Of a stretch of DNA of 64,000 bases, positions 4,960 to 35,621 are shown in pieces. This stretch comes from Ichthyenterobacterium magnum (lineage in GTDB: Bacteria; Bacteroidota; Bacteroidia; Flavobacteriales; Flavobacteriaceae): NCBI RefSeq assembly GCF_003610635.1, contig NZ_RAQJ01000006.1, forward strand, positions 1 to 64,000, in the 5' to 3' direction. The position numbers and the translations under genes are program-made. The first letter of the stretch is position 1; every line of letters begins with the position of its first letter. A model generated the notes under the pieces. It did not search any database, was not told the origin of the DNA, and was given only the letters and a program-made list of their open reading frames with translations.

Positions 4960-5322
4960 ATGCATTTATATTCATTTGAAAAATTGGAAGTTTGGGAAGA
5001 AGCGAAGAAATTAGCTATTAATGTTTACAAAATAACAAGAGAATTTCCCAATGAGGAAAAATATGGTCTTAAATCGCAAATGAGAAGATGTTCAATTTCT
5101 ATACCTTCAAATATTGCTGAAGGTACAGCTAGATTAACTAATAAAGACAAGGCTCATTTTATGACTGTAGCATATAGTTCTGCTATAGAACTGCTAAATC
5201 AAACAATTATTTCAAAAGAATTAAATTTTATTTCCGAAAAAAACTATAAAAATATTAGATTAGAAGTTGAATCTATTACTAATAAAATAAATTCATTACG
5301 TAATTATTTTTTAAAACCTTAA
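4960..5322 (+). CDS. Four helix bundle protein (S23 / 23S rRNA intervening-sequence protein family)
   Basis: A protein of 120 residues with the diagnostic N-terminal pattern FEKLEVWEEAKKLAINVYKITREFPNEE, then YGLKSQMRRCSISIPSNIAEG and a C-terminal helical pair ending INSLRNYFLKP. The family was first seen as ORFs inside intervening sequences of 23S rRNA and is widespread as single genes scattered through Bacteroidota genomes; the molecular function is unknown. Here it sits alone between folE and cysS, flanked by short repeated words. The start follows family alignment; both this gene and cysS begin with ATGCATTT, probably by chance. Confidence 0.92.
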   Translation: MHLYSFEKLEVWEEAKKLAINVYKITREFPNEEKYGLKSQMRRCSISIPSNIAEGTARLTNKDKAHFMTVAYSSAIELLNQTIISKELNFISEKNYKNIRLEVESITNKINSLRNYFLKP

Positions 5323-5356: not shown

Positions 5357-6838
5357 ATGCATTTGTACCAAGAGCAAAAGATTCAAATTTATAATACGCT
5401 TAGCGGAAAAAAAGAAGCTTTTAAACCCATTGTAGATGGCTATGTTGGTATGTATGTTTGCGGACCTACAGTATATAGCAATGTGCATTTAGGAAACGTA
5501 AGAACTTTTATGTCTTTCGATATGGTGTTTCGTTATTTAAAGCATTTAGGCTACAAAGTACGTTACGTAAGAAATATTACAGATGCAGGACACTTAGAAA
5601 ACGATGCCGATGCTGGTGAAGATAAAATTACTAAAAAAGCACGTTTAGAAGCTATAGAACCTATGGAAGTAGTGCAACGTTATACTGTAGATTTTCATAA
5701 CATTTTAAACACACTTAATTTTCTTCCTCCTAGTATTGAGCCAACGGCTACTGGACATATTATCGAACAAATTGAATTAATCAAAAAAATTATAGATAAT
5801 GGTTTTGCTTATGTCGTAAATGGGTCAGTCTATTTTGATGTACATAAATTTAATGAAACCAATGATTACGGAATTTTAAGTAAGCGTAAGCTTGAAGATT
5901 TAATACACAATACAAGAACTCTTGATGGACAGAGTGATAAAAAGAATCCACAAGATTTTGCGCTTTGGAAAAAAGCAGAACCTCAACATATTATGCGCTG
6001 GCCATCACCTTGGAGTGACGGATTTCCTGGTTGGCATCTAGAGTGTACAGCTATGAGCACAAAATATTTAGGCGATAATTTTGATATTCATGGTGGTGGA
6101 ATGGACTTGAAGTTCCCACATCACGAATGTGAAATTGCGCAAAGCGAAGCTGCAATCGGGCAAGCACCTGTAAACTATTGGATGCATGCGAATATGCTAA
6201 ACCTTAATGGTCAACGCATGTCAAAATCAACAGGAAACACAGTAAATCCTGACGAATTACTTTCAGGAAATAATGCATTTTTTAGTAAAGCATATGCACC
6301 AAGTGTTATTCGTTTTTTTAATGCACAATCATCTTACAGAAGTATTTTAGACCTTACAGACGATGGTTTATTAGCTAGTGAAAAAGGGTTTTACAGATTA
6401 ATGGATGCCATTAATTTGTTAGACGATTTAAAACCAGAAAGCTCATCAACATTTAATGTTACCGACTGGAAACAAAAATGTTATGATGCAATGAATGATG
6501 ATTTTAATTCACCAATATTAATTGCACATCTTTTTGAGGCCGCAAAACAAGTCAACCAAATTAAAGATGGTAAAGCATCATTAACTTCTGAAGATTTAGA
6601 ACTACTCAAAAACACAATGAATGCATTTACATTTGATGTTTTAGGTTTAGTTAATGTTTTAAAAGCAGATACTGGCACAGATAAACTTTCTGGAGCTGTT
6701 GAATTATTAATACAATTACGTCAAGATGCAAGAGCCAATAAAGACTTCGCTTTATCAGATAAGATTCGTGATGATTTAGCTTCAGCTGGCATACAATTAA
6801 ACGATGGTAAAGATGGCACAACATTTACCACCAACTAG
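5357..6838 (+). CDS. cysS: Cysteine--tRNA ligase
   Basis: Class I aminoacyl-tRNA synthetase charging tRNA-Cys, cytoplasmic. Of 493 residues, it shows the zinc-binding/entry motif [13 protein letters not shown] (Cys35, with HLGN as the HIGH equivalent at 44-47), a further zinc-site segment [25 protein letters not shown], and the KMSKS loop as RMSKS near residue 290. The C-terminal DALR-type helical domain runs to the end. Length is normal for flavobacterial CysRS. The coding region ends 8 bp before a dispersed palindromic element, with yidD downstream on the same strand. Confidence 0.98.
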
Positions 6839-6846
6839 TTTATCAT

Positions 6847-6913
6847 GTCATTCTGCAGCAGATGCGGAATTCACTTATAAAACTTTAAAATAGATTCCTG
6901 CTTTCGCAGGAAT
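6847..6913 (+). repeat. Dispersed palindromic element, copy 1
   Basis: This 67-bp segment starts gtcattctgcagcagatgcgg and ends with the hairpin attcctgctttcgcaggaat. Read in reverse complement, 55149-55217 has the same order: gtcattcc, gatgcggaat, an AT-rich centre, aatagattcctgc, ttcgcaggaat. The two copies share most positions and lie in opposite orientation. It fills the cysS-yidD spacer and ends 8 nt before the yidD start codon, so its hairpin may affect yidD translation. Confidence 0.75.
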
Positions 6914-6921
6914 AATAAACA

Positions 6922-7158
6922 TTGAAAAAAATACTTACATACCCTTTTTTGTTTTTAATTAAAGTATATCAAACTTTAATCTCACCATTAACGCCTGCTA
7001 GTTGTAGATTTCAACCAACATGTTCTCATTATACTAAAGAAGCATTAGAAAAACATGGGTTATTAAAAGGCGGACAATTAGCAATACGACGTATTTTTAG
7101 TTGTCATCCTTGGGGACGAAGTGGATATGACCCTGTTCCAAAAAAGGATGACAACTAA
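6922..7158 (+). CDS. yidD: Membrane protein insertion efficiency factor YidD
   Basis: Small inner-membrane-associated protein (78 residues here) that assists YidC-dependent membrane insertion. The family core is complete: [28 protein letters not shown] then [35 protein letters not shown]. The start is TTG; no ATG is available in frame, and the reading begins where the family begins. The C-terminus KKDDN is unusual: it comes from sequence that is an inverted copy of upstream yidD DNA. A second tail reading [14 protein letters not shown] then stop, more like the family ending, lies at 7474-7518 after three 121-bp units. Confidence 0.93.
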
Positions 7159-7162
7159 AAAT
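7093..7162. repeat. 17-bp inverted repeat spanning the yidD stop codon
   Basis: atttttagttgtcatcc at 7093-7109 is exactly complementary to ggatgacaactaaaaat at 7146-7162, with 36 nt between. The right arm supplies the last three codons and the stop of yidD. The same right arm is repeated at 121-bp steps downstream. An arm copied in inverse orientation so close by is what a template-switch replication error leaves. Confidence 0.85.
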
Positions 7163-7518
7163 TTGCCAGCGCGATAACTCGCATGTCGCTAAAAATGTAC
7201 ACTGTACATTTTCTTTTTCGCTTCATCGCCTTGGGGACGAAGTGGATATGACCCTGTTCCAAAAAAGGATGACAACTAAAAATTTGCCAGCGCGATAACT
7301 CGCATGTCGCTAAAAATGTACACTGTACATTTTCTTTTTCGCTTCATCGCCTTGGGGACGAAGTGGATATGACCCTGTTCCAAAAAAGGATGACAACTAA
7401 AAATTTGCCAGCGCGATAACTCGCATGTCGCTAAAAATGTACACTGTACATTTTCTTTTTCGCTTCATCGCCTTGGGGACGAAGTGGATATGACCCTGTT
7501 CCAGAAAAGGAAGATTAA
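7108..7518 (+). repeat. Tandem 121-bp repeat, three full units plus the ancestral yidD tail
   Basis: The word ccttggggacg starts at 7108, 7229, 7350 and 7471, an exact 121-bp period. Each full unit holds the last ~50 bp of yidD, the inverted arm, then about 70 bp of unrelated, more GC-rich sequence containing the palindrome aaaatgtac-act-gtacatttt. The fourth copy diverges after gttcca and ends PEKED then stop. The units are identical as far as I can read, so amplification is recent. Units abut directly with no spacers, so this is not a CRISPR. It fills the whole yidD-lgt interval apart from ~65 bp. Confidence 0.95.
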
Positions 7519-7584
7519 AACTATCTTAAGATGCTTATTTAATTTGAGCATAAACAGTATATTTACCCAACAAAATAAATACCT

Positions 7585-8409
7585 ATGCATGCATTAGAAA
7601 TTGTTTGGAATCCTTCAAAAGGAATTGACCTTGGTTTTTTCACAATTCACTATTATAGTTTAATGTGGATTGTTGCCTTTTTATTAGGTTTTCAAATCAT
7701 GAAACGCATTTATAAAAATGAAAATCAAACCGACGAATCTTTAGATTCTTTATTTATCTATTCTGTTATTGGTATTATGCTTGGCGCAAGATTAGGTCAC
7801 GTTATATTTTACCAGTCAGAATTAATTACTCAAGATTTCTTTAGTATTTTTCTTCCGTTTCGATTTAATCCAGAGTTTGAATTTACCGGATTTCAAGGTC
7901 TTGCCAGTCATGGCGCAGCTATAGGTATGATTCTCTCAATGTACTTATACAATAAAAAAGTACTTAAAAAAAGTGTGATTTGGATTTTAGATCGTGTTGT
8001 CATTCCTGTTGCTCTTGGTGCCATTTTTGTTAGAATAGGAAACTTTATAAACTCTGAAATTATAGGAAAACCTACAGGTTCAGATTTTGGTGTTGTGTTT
8101 TCAAAATTAGGGGAAGATTTTGCAAGACATCCTGCTCAACTTTATGAAGCTACATGTTATGTTTTTGTGTTTTTAATTCTATTCTTTATTTACTGGAAAA
8201 CAAAAAAGAGAGAACAACAAGGCTTTTTATTTGGCTTGTTTTTAGTTTTACTTTGGACCGTTCGTTTCTTTGTAGAGTTTGTAAAAGAAGCTCAAAATAT
8301 TGAACGAGCAGAATGGTCTTTAAACACAGGTCAACTATTAAGTATTCCGTTTATACTTATAGGCTTGTATTTTATGTTTGTGTACAAACCAAAACACAAA
8401 TTAAGTTAA
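7585..8409 (+). CDS. lgt: Prolipoprotein diacylglyceryl transferase
   Basis: Inner-membrane enzyme that transfers diacylglycerol from phosphatidylglycerol to the lipobox cysteine of prolipoproteins, the first maturation step for the lipoproteins seen in this window. The 274 residues contain about seven hydrophobic segments, the early IHYYSLMWIVAFLLG, GARLGHVIFY, the HGAAIGMI segment, and the signature region RIGNFINSEIIGKPT followed by RHPAQLYEA. The start has IVWNPSKGIDLGFFTIHYYS as in family members. It is followed after 7 bp by a DUF192 lipoprotein gene, a likely two-gene operon. Confidence 0.97.
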   Translation: MHALEIVWNPSKGIDLGFFTIHYYSLMWIVAFLLGFQIMKRIYKNENQTDESLDSLFIYSVIGIMLGARLGHVIFYQSELITQDFFSIFLPFRFNPEFEFTGFQGLASHGAAIGMILSMYLYNKKVLKKSVIWILDRVVIPVALGAIFVRIGNFINSEIIGKPTGSDFGVVFSKLGEDFARHPAQLYEATCYVFVFLILFFIYWKTKKREQQGFLFGLFLVLLWTVRFFVEFVKEAQNIERAEWSLNTGQLLSIPFILIGLYFMFVYKPKHKLS

Positions 8410-20943: not shown

Positions 20944-22218
20944 ATGAAACTTATAAAGCTAGTATTAATCTTATCATACTTAAATTTATTTGCACAGCCA
21001 ACTTGGCAAGTAACTCCTAATATAATTTCAAACCCAAACAACCAACGCTTTGATGATGTTTTCTTTTTAAATGAAAATTTAGGTTGGGCAGCCAATGGCT
21101 ATTATGCATCTGTTTACAAAACTACAGATGGTGGATTAAATTGGACAGAACAAGTAAACGAAGCTAGCCTTGGTGGTAGTTTTTATTTTAGAAATATTGA
21201 GTTTTTAAATCAGAATGTTGGTTTTTTAGGAACTTTAAATGGCAAGTTTTTTAAAACCATTGATGGCGGCAGCAATTGGGTTGAAGTTACTAACATTTCA
21301 CCAAATCCAACAGCAATTTGTGGGTTAGACACTGTTGGCAGTTCAACAATTTATGGTTGTGGTGCCTATTTTACACCTGCACATATTATAAAATCTACAG
21401 ATAGCGGAAACACTTGGTCGTTTATAGATATGTCTAGTTATGCTAATGCTTTAGTTGAAGTTTTATTTTTAGATGAAACGACAGGATTTGTTTCTGGAAG
21501 AAACAATACTGGTGGATTAATATTAAAAACTACAGATGGTGGATCTTCTTGGACCGAAATATACAACACAAATAATCCTGGAGATTATGTATGGAAACTT
21601 CAAACTTTAGAAGGAAATAATAACATTATGTTTGGATCAATTGAAGCAGCAGGTCTCAATACCGGAAAATTAATTAAATCAACAGATGGCGGTGTTAATT
21701 GGAATAGCTATGATGCCCCTGAAAGAGTTATACAAGCGGTTGGTTTTATTACCGAAAACCATGGATGGATGGGCGGACACACTACTGGATTTTACGAAAC
21801 ATTAGATGGCGGACAAACATGGAACAATCTAAACATTGGGCATAACCTAAATAGAATTTTTATTATTAACTCAACTACAGCTTATGCTTCTGGAACTACA
21901 GTTTACAAATACACTAATGAAACTTTAAATATAGAAACCGTTAAAAACACAGATAAAACTCACTTAGATATAAAGATTCTTGAAAACCCAATAAAAGAGT
22001 ATCTAGAGTTTACAATTAACTATAAAAGTGATGACAATATTCTTATAGAATTATACGATGTAACTGGCAAATTTATAAAGCAATTAACCCGAGATATCAT
22101 TCCTCAAAACATAGTGAAAGCATATGCGTTTGACGTTAGTGAGTTATCGTCTGGTAGTTATATTATAGATTTTCATAATAATTCTGGTAGATCAATAAAA
22201 CGATTTATTAAAGAATAA
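20944..22218 (+). CDS. YCF48/BNR-repeat protein with T9SS C-terminal sorting domain
   Basis: Using the ATG at 20944 (an in-frame GTG lies 7 codons upstream), the protein has a signal peptide KLIKLVLILSYLNLFAQ and about 424 residues. The body is a beta-propeller of YCF48/photosystem-II-assembly type, with repeated blocks like YKTTDGGLNWTEQ, FKTIDGGSNWVEV, IKSTDSGNTWSF, LKTTDGGSSWTEI, IKSTDGGVNWNSY and YETLDGGQTWNNL. The last ~75 residues (IKILENPIKEYLEFTINY...ELYDVTGKFIKQL...SSGSYIIDF) are a Por-secretion type A tail that would be removed on export. Ligand and role are unknown; a short heptamer repeat follows the stop. Confidence 0.93.
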   Translation: MKLIKLVLILSYLNLFAQPTWQVTPNIISNPNNQRFDDVFFLNENLGWAANGYYASVYKTTDGGLNWTEQVNEASLGGSFYFRNIEFLNQNVGFLGTLNGKFFKTIDGGSNWVEVTNISPNPTAICGLDTVGSSTIYGCGAYFTPAHIIKSTDSGNTWSFIDMSSYANALVEVLFLDETTGFVSGRNNTGGLILKTTDGGSSWTEIYNTNNPGDYVWKLQTLEGNNNIMFGSIEAAGLNTGKLIKSTDGGVNWNSYDAPERVIQAVGFITENHGWMGGHTTGFYETLDGGQTWNNLNIGHNLNRIFIINSTTAYASGTTVYKYTNETLNIETVKNTDKTHLDIKILENPIKEYLEFTINYKSDDNILIELYDVTGKFIKQLTRDIIPQNIVKAYAFDVSELSSGSYIIDFHNNSGRSIKRFIKE

Positions 22219-22229
22219 TACTTTTCAAT

Positions 22230-22292
22230 ACTGAATACTGAATACTGAATACTGAATACTGAATACTGAATACTGAATACTGAATACTGAAT
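22230..22292. repeat. Heptanucleotide microsatellite (ACTGAAT)x9
   Basis: Nine perfect head-to-tail copies of actgaat occupy the space between two convergent genes, ending on the base before the queE stop codon. A copy-number change would not alter either reading frame, so effects would be limited to 3' ends or to strain typing. No terminator stem is visible here. Confidence 0.97.
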
Positions 22293-22925
22293 TTAAGGTA
22301 TATTTAAATACTTATGTGTTTGTAATGATACTTTCCATTTAGGATTTGCCATCACATAATCTACAATCTCAGGAACCACTTTATCACGCTTACTCCATTC
22401 TGGTTGTAAATATAAAATACAGTCCTTGTTTACTTTTGCAGCTTGCTCTTCAGCAAAACGAAAATCATCTTTATTATAGATAATACATTTTAGTTCGTGA
22501 GCTTCAGCATATACATCTTCTTTAGGTAATTTCATCTTCTTAGGTGATAAACAAATCCAATCCCAAGTACCAGATAAAGAATAAGCTCCCGACGTTTCAA
22601 TATGTGTTTGAACCCCTTTTGCTTTTAACTGCTCAGTTAATGGTCCCATATCCCAAGTTAATGGTTCGCCGCCAGTAACAACAATTGTATGACTATACCT
22701 TACAGCATTTTCAACAATTTTTTCTGTTTCAGTAGGTGGATGCAATTCTGCTAACCAACTTTCTTTAACATCACACCAATGGCAACCAACATCGCAACCA
22801 CCAATTCTTACAAAGTAAGCAGCAGTTCCTTTATGAAAACCTTCACCTTGAATTGTATAAAACTCCTCCATTAGAGGCAACAACAACCCCTTATCTAATA
22901 ACTCTTGTCTTTCACTTCTTGTCAT
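22293..22925 (-). CDS. queE: 7-carboxy-7-deazaguanine synthase
   Basis: Radical-SAM enzyme converting 6-carboxy-tetrahydropterin to 7-carboxy-7-deazaguanine for queuosine. The 210-residue product has EEFYTIQGEGFHKGTAAYFVRIGGCDVGCHWCD with a CX3CX2C cluster motif, ESW, the GGEPL segment (VTGGEPLTWDMG) and HIETSGAY. The ATG at 22925 is chosen over a TTG at 22934, because that TTG is part of a -7 promoter box (22939-22932). The gene is convergent with the YCF48-like gene and separated only by the microsatellite. FolE upstream in the window supplies the pathway's first step. Confidence 0.95.
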   Translation of the reverse strand: MTRSERQELLDKGLLLPLMEEFYTIQGEGFHKGTAAYFVRIGGCDVGCHWCDVKESWLAELHPPTETEKIVENAVRYSHTIVVTGGEPLTWDMGPLTEQLKAKGVQTHIETSGAYSLSGTWDWICLSPKKMKLPKEDVYAEAHELKCIIYNKDDFRFAEEQAAKVNKDCILYLQPEWSKRDKVVPEIVDYVMANPKWKVSLQTHKYLNIP

Positions 22926-22931
22926 AGGCGG

Positions 22932-22939
22932 CAAAGATA
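22932..22939 (-). promoter_or_regulatory. -7 element immediately before queE
   Basis: TATCTTTG on the minus strand is followed after 6 nt by the queE ATG (22925). Transcription would begin within about 0-2 nt of the start codon, so the mRNA may be leaderless. The box overlaps the alternative TTG start and excludes it. Confidence 0.6.
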
Positions 22940-28901: not shown

Positions 28902-31900
28902 TTATTTATCTAATACAACTTTCTTAATTACAGTTCCGTTATCAGTTACTATTTTAACATAATACAACTGGCTAGGGAATTTAGAAAAATTAATTTTCAA
29001 TTCTTCGCCATTAAAATCTGAGTAATCTTTATTATACATTACTCTACCCATTAAATTGTATACCTGAACATTCATTTTAGCATTAATCTCATGATTAAAC
29101 TTAATGTTTAAAACATCTCTTACTGGGTTTGGATATACAGTTAAAGAGCTTTGTTTAAATTGAGCTTGAGTGTTAGAGCCATCAATAGGAGAAAAATCAA
29201 AAAATGATGAACTAGAGGTTCTTACTGATTTCTTCTTACATCCTGAATCAACTTGAATTGTGCATTCTGAAATACATCCATTATCATCAACTATTGTTAC
29301 CTTAAATATTGCAGTTCCTAACCCTGGTTTAAAATAAACTATAGATTCTGTTTCATCTGATGTAATTGACCATGAATTACTCAAAGCAAACAATTCCCAT
29401 AAATAAGTTACATTTCCATTTCCTCCATTAAATAATGCTGTTAAATATGTTTCTGATGTTTCTACACATTCTAAATCACTCATATTAAAATTAGCATCAA
29501 TTAAGCAAGTCAGTTCTGCTGGTTCTGAAATAGTTACTATTCTTGTTTTACTACAAGGTGTAACAGCTCTTAACTGGTAGCCGTTAGCTATAATTGTTTC
29601 AGATTCTGGATCTGGTAACGTTGCTTCAATAATATAAGTTCCAGGGCTCAAATCTTGCCCATTTAAATTTGGTCCTAAGCCATTTAACTTTATTGTTAAT
29701 TCAGCACCTTCACTTAAATTAGTTACTGTTATTGAACCGTCATTTGCTCCATAACACGTTATATCTGTATAAGAGAAATCAAAACCTACTTGTACTGGCT
29801 CTTCAATGGTAATCGTTCTTTCAATAATACATCTATCGTCTGTATTCTCTTTAAATTGAGCAATAATAGTATAAACACCTGGTCCATAAGAATAACTATC
29901 AGTAAACTCATCATATGTCACGCCATTTATAGTTATAATAGCTCCAGGAGTTACATAGTTAATAACTATGCTTCCGTCATTCTCACCATAACACGACACA
30001 TCTGTATATGTAAAATCTAATTCAATACATATGCAATTTGGCGCTTCTACTAATATTGTGCTCATACAACCAACTGCTGTTGTTGCCTTGATATTAATTG
30101 GCGTATCTACTGGAATCTCACTTATTGTCCAAGTTCCATTATTATTATTTGTAGCTACTGCTTCTATTATATCAGTTGTTACATTACCTTCTGATACATT
30201 AACAACTACAGAGTATGTTCCAAAAATTTCATCACATACTGGAGCTTCAGCTTCTACCTCTGGTAAATCATTTACAAATATGATTTGTGTTTGCGTATCT
30301 GATGCATTACCACAACTATCTACAGCTGTCCATTCTCTAACAATATTGTAACCATTTTCTAAGTTAACTATTTCCTGTGTAGGACTAACTATTATCTCTC
30401 CATCGCAATTATCAAATGCTGTTAAATTTTCCTGAGCAGGAATTGCATCATTAGCACAAATACTCAAGCTTCCTGGAGCAGATGGTATAAGCGGTGCTGT
30501 TTTATCTGTATCATACGAGAAAGTCGACGTACATGATACTCCATTTGGATTACATGCATCATAAGCCGTTAAGGTAAATGATAAATCTACATCTACTCTA
30601 CACTCATAAGCTGGAAGTGCTGGTATATCTGCAATATTTGATGTTGGATTATCGCCATCATTTACACCAAAGCCTGATTTCCATGTATTATATGCTAACA
30701 AAATATCTGCCGCACTTGTACATGCTGGTAAATCAACATTTGTTGGACATGCTACTGTTAATCCTGTTACGCCTGGTACAACAAATGTTGAACTACAGGT
30801 TACCCCATTTGGATTACACCTATCTGTTGCTATATAATCAAAACTAATGTTCACTCCTGTTCCACAATCATACGAAGGTAATGGTGGAATAGAACCTATA
30901 TTATCATCTACTTCACAGCCTCCTGTATACTCAAAGCTATCCTTCCATAAATTATAAGACGCTAATATCTCTGCTTCTGATGATGACGAATCTAACAACA
31001 CACCTGTTGGACAACTCACCTCTAATACTGGTGATGGTACTATTTCAAAACTCGCTAATTCTTCTTGAGTTTCACATAAATCTGTAACGGTATACTTAAC
31101 ATTTACGGTTCCGCCTGTACATAAGTCTGGCGCCAAATATTGTGACTCAAATCCTTCTGTTGCATCACAACCTCCTGTGTATCCAAACTTATCTAAGAAA
31201 TCTTGGAATGCTGCATCTAATTCAATCTGTGATGCATAATCACATGATGGATACGATTCTGGAGCTACTTCATCTAAAACTAAAGTAGATTCAAATGCTC
31301 TAACTGTAAAACTACATGTTGTTACTGAGGTCTCTCCACAATCATCAGTTGCTTTAACATCTATCGACACTACTTGATCCACAGCACCACATTGTGTTGG
31401 TGCTTGTAACGCATCTACATCTGTTATATATTCTACATCTGCATTACAACCGCCTGATGCACTAAAGCTAGATAACACTGCTGTTCTCCATATATCAAAT
31501 GCTATTCCTATCTCTACGTTGGTAGAACAACCATCTACTTCATTGTCTGTTGGACAATCTCCTACTAGTGCTAAATCATTTGTGTAAGCTGGAACTGTAA
31601 AGGTTGCTGTTACTGGTAAAGTCTCACCACAATCGTCTACTGCCTTTATATCTACTGTCACTACTTGAGGGGACGTATTACAATACCCTAAAACTGAAAG
31701 TGTTGTTAAATCTACTGAATACTCAACATCGGCATTACAACCGCCTGATGCTGTCATATTTTCTAGTGCAAGTATCCATGCTGCAAACTCATCTGCTGGA
31801 TTTACACAAGCATCCGTTATTACATCGTCTGGCTTTGTACTTAATGCTAATGCATCTGCTGCTCCTACTTTAAACGTTGATGTACAACTTACTCCATTTG

Positions 31901-34900
31901 GATTACATGCATCATAAGCCGTTAAGGTAAATGATAAATCTACATCTACTCTACACTCATAAGCTGGAAGTGCTGGTATATCTGCAATATTTGATGTTGG
32001 ATTATCGCCATCATTTACACCAAAGCCTGATTTCCATGTATTATATGCTAACAAAATATCTGCCGCACTTGTACATGCTGGTAAATCAACATTTGTTGGA
32101 CATGCTACTGTTAATCCTGTTACGCCTGGTACAACAAATGTTGAACTACAGGTTACCCCATTTGGATTACACCTATCTGTTGCTATATAATCAAAACTAA
32201 TGTTCACTCCTGTTCCACAATCATACGAAGGTAATGGTGGAATAGAACCTATATTATCATCTACTTCACAGCCTCCTGTATACTCAAAGCTATCCTTCCA
32301 TAAATTATAAGATGCTAATATCTCTGCTTCTGATGATGACGAATCTAACAACACACCTGTTGGACAACTCACCTCTAATACTGGTGATGGTATAAGCGTG
32401 AATGTTGCCAAATCATCTTGGCTTCCGCAATCATCTGTAACTGTATAAGTAACTGACACAGAATTACCACCATCTGAAGGTGCTTCTAGCGTTTGTCCTG
32501 AGTTTAAACTTCCTGGGCTTTCTGCTGATGGTCCTGACCATGCAAAATCTGCTCCTGCACTTCCAGTTCCTGTTTTTTGTAAACTCTCTCCTTCTGGTGT
32601 CGATCCAGGCTCTGTAACACCTATATCTGTTGATGACATACCATTTGCATTTCCGCTAGTAGCCATAAATGAACCCTCATAACTTATAAATTCTATTACT
32701 GAATTATCTGGAGCAATTAAAGCCATGCCATCTGGTGCTCCATTTTGTATACCTGCTCTTAAAAACGATAACGCTCCAAAACCTGAAGCTTCATCATCTA
32801 TAATTCCAGTAAGAGCTAATGTTGGTGTATATAATGCGCCTCCATTTCCATTGTAAAACTCTACTGAATAACCAGTTAAATCTAAACCTGCAGTTCCAGC
32901 AATCTCAACAAACTCTCCTGTATCACCTCCATCGTCATCATAATGAAGTTCATTAATCCAAACTTGTGTTGCTGGTGTTGAGCTATCACTTGGGCATAAG
33001 CTTGGTGCTGTTAAGCCTTCTAAACCTGTTGCTTGTGGATTACAGCCTCCTATATATCCAAAACCTTGTAACCATAACGCAAATGCATCATCTAATTCTT
33101 GCTGTGTCTCATAAAGACATGCATCTACATCTGTACTTTGTACATCACTCACACTCAATGGTGTTGATGCTGCTACCTTAAAGCTTGAACTACATGTTAA
33201 TGGTGTTGTATTACAATCGTCTGTTGCACTTAACTCAAAACTAAAGTCTAATCCACCACCACATACAAATGCTGGTAAAGATGGTAACTGTGCTAAATTT
33301 GAATCTGCATTACAACCACCGTTAACTGTAAAACCTGCTGCCCATGTTGCATAAGCATTTGCTATTTCTTGCTCTGTACTACATGCTGGTAAGTCTACAT
33401 TGTTTGTTGGACAGCTCACACTCAATGGTGTTGCTGCTGCTACTTTAAAGCTTGAACTACATGTTAATGGTGTTGTGTTACAATCGTCTGTTGCACTTAA
33501 CTCAAAACTAAAGTCTAATCCACCACCACATACAAATGCTGGTAAAGATGGTAACTGTGCTAAATTTGAATCTGCATTACAACCACCGTTAACTGTAAAA
33601 CCTGCTGCCCATGTTGCATAAGCATTTGCTATTTCTTGCTCTGTACTACATGCTGGTAAGTCTACATTGTTTGTTGGACAGCTCACACTCAATGGTGTTG
33701 CATTGAAAACAAAATTTCTTGGACATTCTGCTATATTTTGTCCATCATCTGTTAAATAATATGTTCTTGTAATTGTAGCTCCTGAAGCACAAATATCACC
33801 TGAAGAGTTAGAATCTAAATGTGTAATTCCTGGGGTTCCACAGGTTGTTACACCTGAGAATATATCTGCGATTTCTGCATCTGTGTTTCCTGCATCATAT
33901 TCTGAAGGAATCGTTGCTAAGCAACTCTCAATTAGTACATCTGCTAAACTATTACACGTAGCTTCTGGGTTACACAATGACTCTGTTACCTCAGCTGAAC
34001 TACTATCACTTAAAGGAGCACCTCCTGGAGTTTCTCCTGTTACATTTGCCGTATTATTGAAAGGGAATATTTGATTTACTGGTAATGTAGTTGGATAATA
34101 ATATGTTTTTGTTTGACCAGAAGTCATCGTAGTTAAAAATGGTCCGTTTAATAAATTATTTTCATCTATATTAATATCTAAATCACTAAAATCTATATTG
34201 CTAATGGTTTGCTGACCAGCATTTGTAATTGTAAAGCAATAGGTTACTTTAGAATCGTTAGGATTAGGAATTGTTTTTAACCCATTACATCCAGAGCCAT
34301 CTCCATCATGGCCAGCATATACTGTTTTATCTAATTGTAAATCGTTATTACAAGAGTTTTGTGCTATATCTAAAAAACAAGCTGTTAAATCACCAGAAGA
34401 AATTAACCCATAATCTGCTGTTAATGGTGTTTCTGTTGGATCACCTGGTCCATCATCAAGAATTGGTCCTGTAACTGCTATAAGATTATTAGTATTAATA
34501 TTTGCTCCAACACCTAAAGCGAATAAATGTGCTCCAGATTGTTTTAAAGTACAAGCTTCATCTACAGCATCAAGAACGTGATCTCCTGAAGTAGTAGGAT
34601 CACCACTACCATTGACAGATCTATTAGGATTTCCATCAGTCATAAATAACACAATATCTGCTGTCATTGTATTGTTAAGCGTGACTGCTTTTCTTAAGGC
34701 ATCTTCCCAATTAGTAAATTCACCTGTTGTATTAGAGCGATCTCCAAAACTAGCTACGATACCTGTTGAAGGATGGTTTAGACCATCTATATATGCTTGG
34801 TTCACTAAATTATAACCTGTAAAGCCACCATAAGTTGGTATATCTGCGGATGTTGCAAATTCTACAAAAGCTAATTGTGCTCCTGTATCTTTTAAAGCAT

Positions 34901-35621
34901 TAGCTAAAGCTAATGCAGCGGCTTCTACATCTCCTTGAGCACTATCAATTGAACCCGATTCATCTAAAACTACAATAACTTTAAATGCATTACAAGAAGG
35001 CGACTCATTTATTGGATTGGCACAATCATTTTCTAAAATATTAAGTGAGTAGTCTTCAACCTCACCATCAAAATCAGTATCACAAGCGTCTGGATTAGTA
35101 TTATATCTTGTAGAAATTCTCATTCTAGTTGACCCAAGAGCTGCATTATTGGGTACAGTTATAGACAAAGGCACTAATGAAACAGGTTCATTCCCATTAT
35201 TATCATCAGCAAATCCGAGGTCGTACGTTTCTCCTGAGTCATTGAAATCTCCATCTTGATTCCAATCTATCCAAGCAAAAGAATGAACAGTAAAATCACC
35301 GTCTGTATTTACATTAACCGTTAATTCATATGTAGCTGATTGTGAAACATCTGTTGACATTCCTGTATAATCAGAATAATCGTTATCTACATTAGGAGAA
35401 GGATTATTAATGGTATTAAATTGAACCAGTCTAGTTAATGTAAAATACCCATCAGTAGCATCTCCAAAAGAATTACAGTACTGAGCGTTAACATAAGACC
35501 CAAATAAAAACAAAAAAGTCAAAAAGAACAGTAACTGTTTTTTGACTTGAATTAAGGATACAAAAGAATTTGTACAACATTTTAATAAGTTTTGACATGA
35601 AGTAATAGCAAAGTTGTTCAT
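28902..35621 (-). CDS. Giant T9SS-exported protein with GEVED, vWA and lamin-tail domains (2239 aa)
   Basis: Starts with an extended N-region and a signal segment (KKQLLFFLTFLFLFGSYVNAQ). Then: a GEVED domain (about 75-195, WIDWNQDGDFNDSGETYDLG...DGEVEDYSL); a von Willebrand A domain (about 212-415) with MIDAS motif DESGS; a DUF11-like segment (about 425-545); many Cys-containing ~85-90-residue repeats (VSCPTNVDLPACTS...GG.N...S....LP.Y.C); a lamin-tail domain (about 885-1040, VWINELHYDDDGGDTGEFVEIAG) inside the repeat array; HYR/SprB-like modules; and a Por-secretion tail (last ~80 residues, ending YYVKIVTDNGTVIKKVVLDK). Probably an adhesin. A -7 box lies 26 nt before the ATG. Internal duplications are nearly identical in DNA. 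Confidence 0.93.
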   Translation of the reverse strand: MNNFAITSCQNLLKCCTNSFVSLIQVKKQLLFFLTFLFLFGSYVNAQYCNSFGDATDGYFTLTRLVQFNTINNPSPNVDNDYSDYTGMSTDVSQSATYELTVNVNTDGDFTVHSFAWIDWNQDGDFNDSGETYDLGFADDNNGNEPVSLVPLSITVPNNAALGSTRMRISTRYNTNPDACDTDFDGEVEDYSLNILENDCANPINESPSCNAFKVIVVLDESGSIDSAQGDVEAAALALANALKDTGAQLAFVEFATSADIPTYGGFTGYNLVNQAYIDGLNHPSTGIVASFGDRSNTTGEFTNWEDALRKAVTLNNTMTADIVLFMTDGNPNRSVNGSGDPTTSGDHVLDAVDEACTLKQSGAHLFALGVGANINTNNLIAVTGPILDDGPGDPTETPLTADYGLISSGDLTACFLDIAQNSCNNDLQLDKTVYAGHDGDGSGCNGLKTIPNPNDSKVTYCFTITNAGQQTISNIDFSDLDINIDENNLLNGPFLTTMTSGQTKTYYYPTTLPVNQIFPFNNTANVTGETPGGAPLSDSSSAEVTESLCNPEATCNSLADVLIESCLATIPSEYDAGNTDAEIADIFSGVTTCGTPGITHLDSNSSGDICASGATITRTYYLTDDGQNIAECPRNFVFNATPLSVSCPTNNVDLPACSTEQEIANAYATWAAGFTVNGGCNADSNLAQLPSLPAFVCGGGLDFSFELSATDDCNTTPLTCSSSFKVAAATPLSVSCPTNNVDLPACSTEQEIANAYATWAAGFTVNGGCNADSNLAQLPSLPAFVCGGGLDFSFELSATDDCNTTPLTCSSSFKVAASTPLSVSDVQSTDVDACLYETQQELDDAFALWLQGFGYIGGCNPQATGLEGLTAPSLCPSDSSTPATQVWINELHYDDDGGDTGEFVEIAGTAGLDLTGYSVEFYNGNGGALYTPTLALTGIIDDEASGFGALSFLRAGIQNGAPDGMALIAPDNSVIEFISYEGSFMATSGNANGMSSTDIGVTEPGSTPEGESLQKTGTGSAGADFAWSGPSAESPGSLNSGQTLEAPSDGGNSVSVTYTVTDDCGSQDDLATFTLIPSPVLEVSCPTGVLLDSSSSEAEILASYNLWKDSFEYTGGCEVDDNIGSIPPLPSYDCGTGVNISFDYIATDRCNPNGVTCSSTFVVPGVTGLTVACPTNVDLPACTSAADILLAYNTWKSGFGVNDGDNPTSNIADIPALPAYECRVDVDLSFTLTAYDACNPNGVSCTSTFKVGAADALALSTKPDDVITDACVNPADEFAAWILALENMTASGGCNADVEYSVDLTTLSVLGYCNTSPQVVTVDIKAVDDCGETLPVTATFTVPAYTNDLALVGDCPTDNEVDGCSTNVEIGIAFDIWRTAVLSSFSASGGCNADVEYITDVDALQAPTQCGAVDQVVSIDVKATDDCGETSVTTCSFTVRAFESTLVLDEVAPESYPSCDYASQIELDAAFQDFLDKFGYTGGCDATEGFESQYLAPDLCTGGTVNVKYTVTDLCETQEELASFEIVPSPVLEVSCPTGVLLDSSSSEAEILASYNLWKDSFEYTGGCEVDDNIGSIPPLPSYDCGTGVNISFDYIATDRCNPNGVTCSSTFVVPGVTGLTVACPTNVDLPACTSAADILLAYNTWKSGFGVNDGDNPTSNIADIPALPAYECRVDVDLSFTLTAYDACNPNGVSCTSTFSYDTDKTAPLIPSAPGSLSICANDAIPAQENLTAFDNCDGEIIVSPTQEIVNLENGYNIVREWTAVDSCGNASDTQTQIIFVNDLPEVEAEAPVCDEIFGTYSVVVNVSEGNVTTDIIEAVATNNNNGTWTISEIPVDTPINIKATTAVGCMSTILVEAPNCICIELDFTYTDVSCYGENDGSIVINYVTPGAIITINGVTYDEFTDSYSYGPGVYTIIAQFKENTDDRCIIERTITIEEPVQVGFDFSYTDITCYGANDGSITVTNLSEGAELTIKLNGLGPNLNGQDLSPGTYIIEATLPDPESETIIANGYQLRAVTPCSKTRIVTISEPAELTCLIDANFNMSDLECVETSETYLTALFNGGNGNVTYLWELFALSNSWSITSDETESIVYFKPGLGTAIFKVTIVDDNGCISECTIQVDSGCKKKSVRTSSSSFFDFSPIDGSNTQAQFKQSSLTVYPNPVRDVLNIKFNHEINAKMNVQVYNLMGRVMYNKDYSDFNGEELKINFSKFPSQLYYVKIVTDNGTVIKKVVLDK
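30538..31039 (-). repeat. 502-bp intragenic duplication, copy A
   Basis: Matches 31891-32392 at an offset of exactly 1353 bp (451 codons). The one difference I see is C at 30960 against T at 32313, a synonymous Ala change. It encodes two Cys-rich repeat modules (ATDRCNPNGVTCSSTF...TAYDACNPNGVSCTS). Matches end abruptly on both sides. Confidence 0.9.
31891..32392 (-). repeat. 502-bp intragenic duplication, copy B
   Basis: Partner of 30538-31039. The near absence of even synonymous change means a recent duplication or continuing gene conversion between the two blocks. The 851 bp between them encode different repeat modules. Confidence 0.9.
33145..33684 (-). repeat. Tandem 267-bp duplication (2 units) in the giant gene
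   Basis: The word aagcttgaac recurs at 33181 and 33448, and acactcaatggtgttg at 33151, 33418 and 33685, giving a period of 267 bp (89 codons). The two units differ at only a few positions (for example ctacc/ctact and gtatt/gtgtt). Each encodes one module TPLSVSCPTNNVDLPACSTE...CNTTPLTCSSSFKVAA. Confidence 0.92.

Follow-up and report, generated by a model that had tools for sequence, protein, structure and literature searches.

REPs and REPINs are short extragenic hairpin repeats that are dispersed through genomes, often near the ends of genes and sometimes in clusters, and RAYT is TnpA_REP, a Y1 enzyme. Rickettsia palindromic elements (RPE) are palindromes that can sit inside reading frames. 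PMC3733652 mentions RPE and likewise describes REPs and REPINs as extragenic hairpin repeats that are dispersed, lie near gene ends and are sometimes clustered. According to the same paper, REPs with a CGTC tag are found in Bacteroidetes too and have no dedicated transposase; they combine a stem of 8-9 bp, a loop of 4-5, the CGTC tag and a CCA-like tail, and G. forsetii is among the CGTC-positive species (PMC3733652).

Here, we describe a short hairpin repeat at the 3' end of yidD in Ichthyenterobacterium magnum, within a window of 64,000 nucleotides (contig NZ_RAQJ01000006.1, positions 1 to 64,000), the window being the whole stretch of DNA that was analysed. Its core resembles REPs and REPINs in being short, hairpin-forming, dispersed and near gene ends. 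However, it lacks a GTAG-type tag and has TTCGCT before and CTTTACGCTC after the stem (consensus of the 31-carrier alignment), and although a Y1 transposase (PF01797) was present in 6 of 20 picked core-bearing genomes, none of the 14 Y1 loci had a core within ~1.5 kb. Identity with REP/RAYT was thus ruled out, there being no cognate Y1 flanked by the repeat, and Y1 transposases, the enzyme family searched, yielded no trans-acting gene for the core. The yidD element further departs from REP/RAYT in having duplicated DNA of the host on its flanks and an inverted arm that matches the host. With the CGTC-tagged REPs the core shares the build of a small palindrome without a known transposase, but its stem is 9-10 bp (AAAATGTAC/GTACATTTT), its loop 1-3 bases (ACT between these two arms), and no CGTC tag adjoins it. 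G. forsetii, which we take to be a Gramella, presumably belongs to the Flavobacteriaceae.

Comparison with other small elements gives a similarly mixed picture. The core is like RPE, as generally described, in lying in frame within what we take to be recombinase-like genes (L112, L119). The yidD element is like MITEs in being short, non-coding and flanked by a target duplication, but that duplication is long and variable (~40 bp at yidD, variable elsewhere) rather than of fixed short length, and no parent transposon with the same ends was seen within ~2.5 kb downstream of empty yidD loci. The family uses the same kind of site as integrative elements at tRNA and tmRNA 3' ends, in some cases with the gene end repeated beyond the insert; unlike them, the insert is short and gene-less, and the repeated yidD end is mostly the host's own. 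Inspection by eye gave no match to R and L boxes of the attC type (integron cassettes). In the open literature, including the accessible portions of PMC3733652, PMC2864250 and PMC6006769, no description of this repeat was recognised. The repeat behaves as small palindromes of the REP or MITE-like sort do, yet it fails testable defining features of the named kinds. We propose that the array is, on balance probably, a yidD-dedicated member of a family of short non-coding hairpin repeats with a core of ~66 bp that has spread through the Flavobacteriaceae and arrives in a homing-like manner. In this reading, the repeats of the family are small, palindromic and site-preferring and expand as tandem units, and the family is apparently undescribed.

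Anatomy of the array at the end of yidD

The present yidD reading frame occupies 6922-7158 on the forward strand (TIGR00278, 87.6 bits against a cut-off of 40). A reading made from the sequence alone had described three 121-bp units and a partial fourth copy at 7108-7518, and this description was borne out by TRF, which reported a single array at 7108-7511 (period 121, 3.3 copies, 99% matches, score 801), and by a repeat search of the window, which returned copies at 7108, 7229 and 7350 with 100%, 100% and 99% identity; the exact number of three comes from one draft assembly. The units (7108-7228, 7229-7349 and 7350-7470, all forward) each consist of B, ~40 bp of yidD tail, then A', a 19-bp inverted stretch of yidD, and then the 66-bp core. 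Unit 1 divides into B at 7108-7147, A' at 7144-7162 and core at 7163-7228; after B, units 2 and 3 have A' at 7265-7283 and 7386-7404 and core at 7284-7349 and 7405-7470. A' is an inverted copy of yidD sequence that overlaps the beginning of B and extends before it: the host arm A (7093-7111, forward, the IFSCHP codons) is 100% complementary over 19 bp to 7144-7162 and again to 7265-7283 and 7386-7404. The inverted arm had been seen before, together with its role in ending yidD, and only its length needed correction, from 17 to 19 bp. The last residues of the present frame, KDDN, and its stop are encoded by A', which agrees with the earlier proposal that the inverted piece supplies the stop. 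AAGG/CCTT is present at the ends of B. The fourth tail (7471-7518, forward) ends in PEKED and a stop, its final codons being GAA GAT TAA and its last base 7518, and the next gene, lgt (7585-8409, forward; ORF list and profile search), lies in the flank outside the element.

The sequence-only reading had also seen in the insert an inverted yidD piece joined to DNA other than yidD, and this stands: the 66-bp core is not yidD sequence, and the sequence of the yidD insert contains no gene. That reading missed a near-palindrome of 21 bp, AAAATGTACACTGTACATTTT, within the part it called foreign (7163-7228). The palindrome lies at 7192-7212 (forward) in the first core and recurs at 7313-7333 and 7434-7454, and its pairs are kept by paired changes across copies of the family. 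As a single strand, 7093-7228 has a folding energy of -43.9 kcal/mol; shuffled versions average -24.2 (z -6.5), and none of 200 does as well. In the genome of the window (3.0 Mb, 16 contigs), blastn and patterns with up to three mismatches found no copies of the insert besides these three and no second core that could serve as their source. A comparison of 6800-7700 with Rfam returned two rows only, both far under gathering (E 0.37 and 0.64).

The insert at yidD in other flavobacteria

The insert occurs in the same place in 22 of the best 80 yidD loci among 496 confirmed relatives (one genome per species), a proportion that is not a family-wide frequency because it covers the best 80 of the 496 only. 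These carriers, 20 with a complete core and two (L062, L069) whose contig ends inside the insert, belong to genera across the Flavobacteriaceae: Psychroserpens, Bizionia, Lacinutrix, Xanthomarina, Formosa, Hanstruepera, Flavivirga, Algibacter and Arcticiflavibacter, and they also include Winogradskyella aurantia and other flavobacteria. The order at the carriers is A-B-A'-core-B. Since many flavobacteria carry it there, each beside a duplicated piece of its own gene, the yidD insert looks like a recurring small mobile element, found at the same spot in many marine flavobacteria, rather than one odd mutation.

That the segment is an insertion, as first suggested, is supported by empty relatives, which have one tail where carriers have one or more extra. 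Empty relatives of the Psychroserpens group (L026, L028, L030, L046) have ..GAAGATTAAAACTAT.. directly after their one tail, and the window and other carriers (L016, L022, L032, L034, L080) have it after the last tail copy. Hence copy 4 in the window, which matches the single tail and downstream context of these empty loci, is the displaced original end, in agreement with the earlier reading. One unit is present in 24 carriers, two in 3 and three in 4 (n=31), so the length of the locus varies between species. The core is absent from 54 of the 97 yidD loci analysed; the pattern failed to match at 59, of which L062, L069, L096, L097 and L103 are carriers that are cut off or were missed. At empty yidD loci there was no second tail copy within ~2.5 kb downstream, the two matches (L097, L103) being such missed carriers, and therefore no larger element with tail copies as its ends. 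Seven loci were dropped as lying on the same contigs as others (L095, L096, L098, L102, L104, L105, L109), and L090, a near copy of L088, was left out of the tests of arm, tail and 66-nt yidD windows and of the reported core-host correlation. In Lacinutrix himadriensis (L023, 2641-3540), further tail-like pieces joined to another palindrome (GAGATTCCTCC..GTCGGAATGACA) are repeated beyond the yidD element.

The tails on either side of the insert mostly match each other within a host. Of 30 loci, 20 have tail copies that share no fewer than 27 of 30 bases, as against only 23 of 465 comparisons between loci. The sequence-only reading depends on relatives with the KDDN tail also keeping a displaced tail, and as a rule they do: 27 of the 30 scored carriers have a second copy that agrees in 23 bases or more out of 30. 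A KDDN-type tail without a recognisable second copy occurs at L021 (11/30); L088 (19/30) also has no clear second tail, the copy at L099 (20/30) is diverged and that at L113 is cut short. Agreement falls below 27/30 in 10 of the 30 loci, and at L099 (20) and L106 (23) it is no better than that of the average pair of tails from different loci (0.77).

The inverted arm is likewise matched to its host. Across 31 carriers, the arm fits its own host better than it does others (summed exact length 407 against 371.7 +/- 9.1 when permuted, p ~0.0006), and an arm of at least 11 nt is perfect in 25 of 31 carriers and present in 30 of 31 if a single mismatch is tolerated. Paired changes are visible in the arm of L018, where TAGCTGTC stands opposite GACAGCTA, and at L080 and L093, where ATATTTAG stands opposite CTAAAT. 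In the 31-carrier alignment 97.2% of cells pair, a value that none of 500 shuffles reaches and that drops to 38-46% when the partners are slid. Five pairs have changed on both sides, three of them in the A-A' helix (shuffled mean 1.1, 0 of 500 shuffles; kinship may inflate this count), and the count of further pair types was matched by 87 of 500 shuffles. The inverted arm beats all 50 shuffles in 31 of 32 yidD copies as against 4 of 83 non-yidD copies, and at RNA-gene sites it beats 95% of shuffles in 2 of 16 (L180, L190). We had tried A-B-A'-core-B as a general rule for all sites, from inspection of L117, L156, L180 and L190 by eye, and these two tests (4/83 and 2/16) rejected it; we therefore claim the inverted arm for the yidD lineage only.

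Was the insert inherited or did it move? Mapped on a CysS tree made from 93 loci, the presence of the insert at yidD takes a minimum of 22 changes, and branches with good support force 11 of these. With shuffled labels the figure is 28.4, and 2 of 500 shuffles were as low as 22, so that carriers are somewhat clustered. The ratio of 35 carriers to 58 other loci on this tree is not a frequency, since the carriers beyond the best 80 were picked for having the core; L062, L069, L097 and L103 were entered as carriers by hand, because a contig end, an indel or an N run hides the pattern in them. Core distance does not follow CysS distance between hosts (r 0.13, p 0.12, n 30 carriers; with L090, r 0.108, p 0.15, n 31), and its correlation with yidD DNA distance is as low (r 0.13, p 0.16, n 32). 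In yidD itself, a 150-nt window follows CysS distance with r 0.67 and 66-nt windows with r 0.47-0.62; a 30-nt tail window does not (r 0.04), and very short windows thus lose power. The low correlation of core with host could also stem from constraint on the core, if the few positions left free in it are saturated.

The yidD cores are a type of their own: a variable stem pair is A:T in 32 of 32 yidD cores and in 13 of 83 elsewhere. In each of three genomes that also have a core at another site, the yidD core is on average nearer to the yidD cores of other genomes than to that other core, two of the three cores compared (L194, L212) being of the TPP-side form described below. Dedicated to its site, patchy, with host-matched flanks and off the host tree, the yidD lineage is best described as homing-like.

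The chief rival, which would explain part of these data, is one old insertion in an ancestor of the family that was inherited vertically, lost without scar between the tail copies in many lineages, and kept host-matched in tails and arms by turnover of the array. The two direct tail copies permit exact loss, the yidD carriers have the same junctions and cores of one type, and their partial clustering on the tree (22 changes against 28.4) points the same way; with regard to the junctions, a single origin fits as well as a site-specific process. At L099 and L106 the tail copies are well diverged, which favours some insertions, at least, being old, and because of this we slightly lowered our confidence in the homing-like reading. 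Against a single old insertion stand the at least 22 changes that it requires on the CysS tree, core distances that do not follow host distances (r 0.13) where equally long yidD windows do (0.47-0.62), and the single-unit carriers L032, L107 and L110, now without an array to turn over, whose tail copies are identical at 30 of 30 bases. We regard this history as rather unlikely.

Cores at other sites

Related cores were found in genomes of the family; plasmids, phages and viral contigs gave no source. With one core as query, blastn found matches in 105 of 397 Flavobacteriaceae genomes, and a 28-base core pattern with up to three mismatches matched 95 of 397 (yidD sites included), with 0 for the reversed-pattern control. 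In a phylum-wide draw of 296 genomes seven matched, 4 of 30 within the family and 3 of 266 outside it, the three outside all being in one other family of the class. In the central stem, pair 14:20 is formed in 73 of 74 distinct copies, where its columns predict 38.5, and this is not forced by the search pattern, since the pattern allows both letters on both sides there. The insert matched phages and plasmids no better than chance (best E 2 and 0.4), a second core had no match in them at E 1, and two exact core patterns matched no viral contig.

For the surroundings of the cores, we hand-picked 60 non-yidD regions from 38 genomes among the matches listed, six each from G312 and G118; the strand of the near-palindromic core was set by its best pattern match and is rough. 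In 20 of the 60 regions a core follows a tRNA or tmRNA gene at a distance of at most 400 nt, in 16 of these on the same strand, and in one further region it is on the upstream side; the background, 60 yidD loci without any tRNA gene, is a weak one that amounts to a single syntenic region. A direct duplication of the flanks is stronger than in every one of 30 mismatched controls for 32 of 83 non-yidD copies (~3 expected) and for 30 of 32 yidD copies; in the other 51 of the 83 it is not significant. These 83 copies represent 68 loci, with arrays counted more than once, and the right-flank rule left out 22 of 137 core hits. At the 16 RNA-gene sites the longest exact shared runs range from 7 to 49, the short ones being at chance level. 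Split by eye, the gene's own end is repeated beyond the core at five of the 16 (L156, L161, L176, L180, L182; for example 23 nt in L156 and 17 nt in L161), sequence just beyond the gene end is shared at four (L169, L174, L190, L207), and nothing is clear at seven. Tandem cores occur away from yidD at L156, L157, L190 and L209.

Some sites are of other kinds. At L117 the core lies at the 5' end of what we take, from its sequence, to be argB. In L112:617-1618 and L119:609-1598 (reverse strand) it lies in frame near the start of a gene that is presumably recombinase-like, judging from its sequence, where it adds ..RAERKENVQCTFLANEPAGA.. between two similar stretches, in L112 YEHYLEKNGY and YTHYLEKNGY. 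At L155, L158, L167, L171, L194 and L202 a core-like hairpin adjoins a TPP-riboswitch-like sequence on the opposite strand, at the position expected of an expression platform, and in several of these TPP-side loci the left half of the core departs from its usual form. A separate, well-conserved context, ..ATATTTTAGGCTATAC[AG]AAT..TTA[GA]CTAAAAATGTACACTGTACATTTT.., occurs in five genomes (L164, L195, L200, L203, L211); the ATATTTTAGGCTATAC/CTAAAAATGTACACTGTACATTTT context is found twice in G005, 6.6 kb apart, and looks like another repeat that shares the palindrome.

In another conceivable origin, the repeats are remnants or minimal cassettes of integrative elements of the tyrosine-recombinase type: tRNA, tmRNA and yidD 3' ends would be attachment sites, the tails attL and attR, and the core a recombinase-binding region. 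Cores downstream of tRNA and tmRNA genes, some with the RNA gene's own end copied after the core, and the cores within the presumed recombinase-like genes (L112, L119) are consistent with this. However, most yidD tail copies are host-specific and not carried, one type of core serves unrelated sites, empty yidD loci have no second tail within ~2.5 kb downstream, plasmids and phages gave no significant match and viral contigs no exact pattern match, all of which makes such an origin improbable.

We are equally doubtful that a function in RNA is what keeps the repeats, although this would be compatible with the other explanations. The repeat would then act as a stable 3' hairpin of the yidD mRNA (elsewhere, of RNA genes and riboswitch leaders), as a terminator, stability element or expression platform. 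The strong fold (z -6.5), a helix kept by paired changes and the TPP-riboswitch-like neighbours argue for it; the latter were found at 6 of 6 loci picked for that look (E 1.5e-6 to 0.084), all below the Rfam gathering score, and in 20 core loci compared with Rfam only tRNA, tmRNA, rRNA and Flavo-1 reached gathering. But the core is absent from 54 of 97 yidD loci, a terminator scan found no intrinsic terminator in the array, and the patchy presence and tandem spread look selfish.

Last, a one-off template switch with foreign DNA followed by amplification, as the sequence-only reading supposed, would produce the A-B-A'-core-B anatomy, with AAGG/CCTT at the ends of B as a possible primer, but as a two-step mutation private to this lineage it is already contradicted by the same junctions and core in 22 of the best 80 yidD loci across many genera and by the dispersal of cores beyond yidD (95 of 397 family genomes, yidD sites included), and it survives, with very little probability, only for the origin of the very first yidD element.

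Possible movement of the element, and other repeats in the window

In light of the yidD array being probably a homing-like repeat, how might it move? At yidD, insertion came with a duplicated target and with a host-matched inverted arm, and the number of units differs by species. The element may reach yidD, and pass between genomes, by a homing-like, non-autonomous process that duplicates its target. The inverted arm at yidD may have been copied from the host at insertion, by snap-back synthesis, or it may be kept matched later by selection or by hairpin-mediated correction. The 121-bp units would be gained and lost through slippage or unequal recombination between the direct repeats, and recombination between the outer tail copies would delete the element and leave no scar. 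For yidD we expect a mild effect, EKED-stop becoming xKDDN-stop, with the original end and the lgt side kept downstream.

In its most specific form, which we put forward as a speculation more apt to prove wrong than right, this would be a homing non-coding element without a gene of its own that has one fixed site in yidD, re-makes its arm from each new host by snap-back, duplicates its target, and has sister lineages at the ends of tRNA and tmRNA genes. If this is true, a homing element rewrites the end of yidD using the gene's own sequence.

With these findings, what was a curiosity of a single genome becomes a family whose members can be counted over hundreds of genomes: a hairpin element of 66 bp with lineages dedicated to their sites, host-matched flanks and an insertion that is, in principle, reversible without a scar. 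It offers a clean natural setting in which to study the movement of very small non-coding repeats that lack their own transposase, and any part that snap-back copying of host DNA has in it. For annotation, the element accounts for the two endings, EKED and KDDN, of yidD proteins among related flavobacteria.

The window contains other repeats. A perfect 7-bp tandem repeat, AATACTG x 9.4, lies at 22227-22292 between an ORF ending at 22218 (forward) and a converging ORF at 22293-22934 (reverse), and is likely to be length-variable. At 33148-33701, inside an ORF of 2239 aa (28902-35621, reverse), a 267-bp tandem repeat (2.1 copies, 98%) is a recent duplication within a very large protein. Finally, a 120-aa ORF at 4960-5322, between a folE-like gene and cysS, looks, from its sequence, like the four-helix-bundle proteins of 23S intervening sequences.
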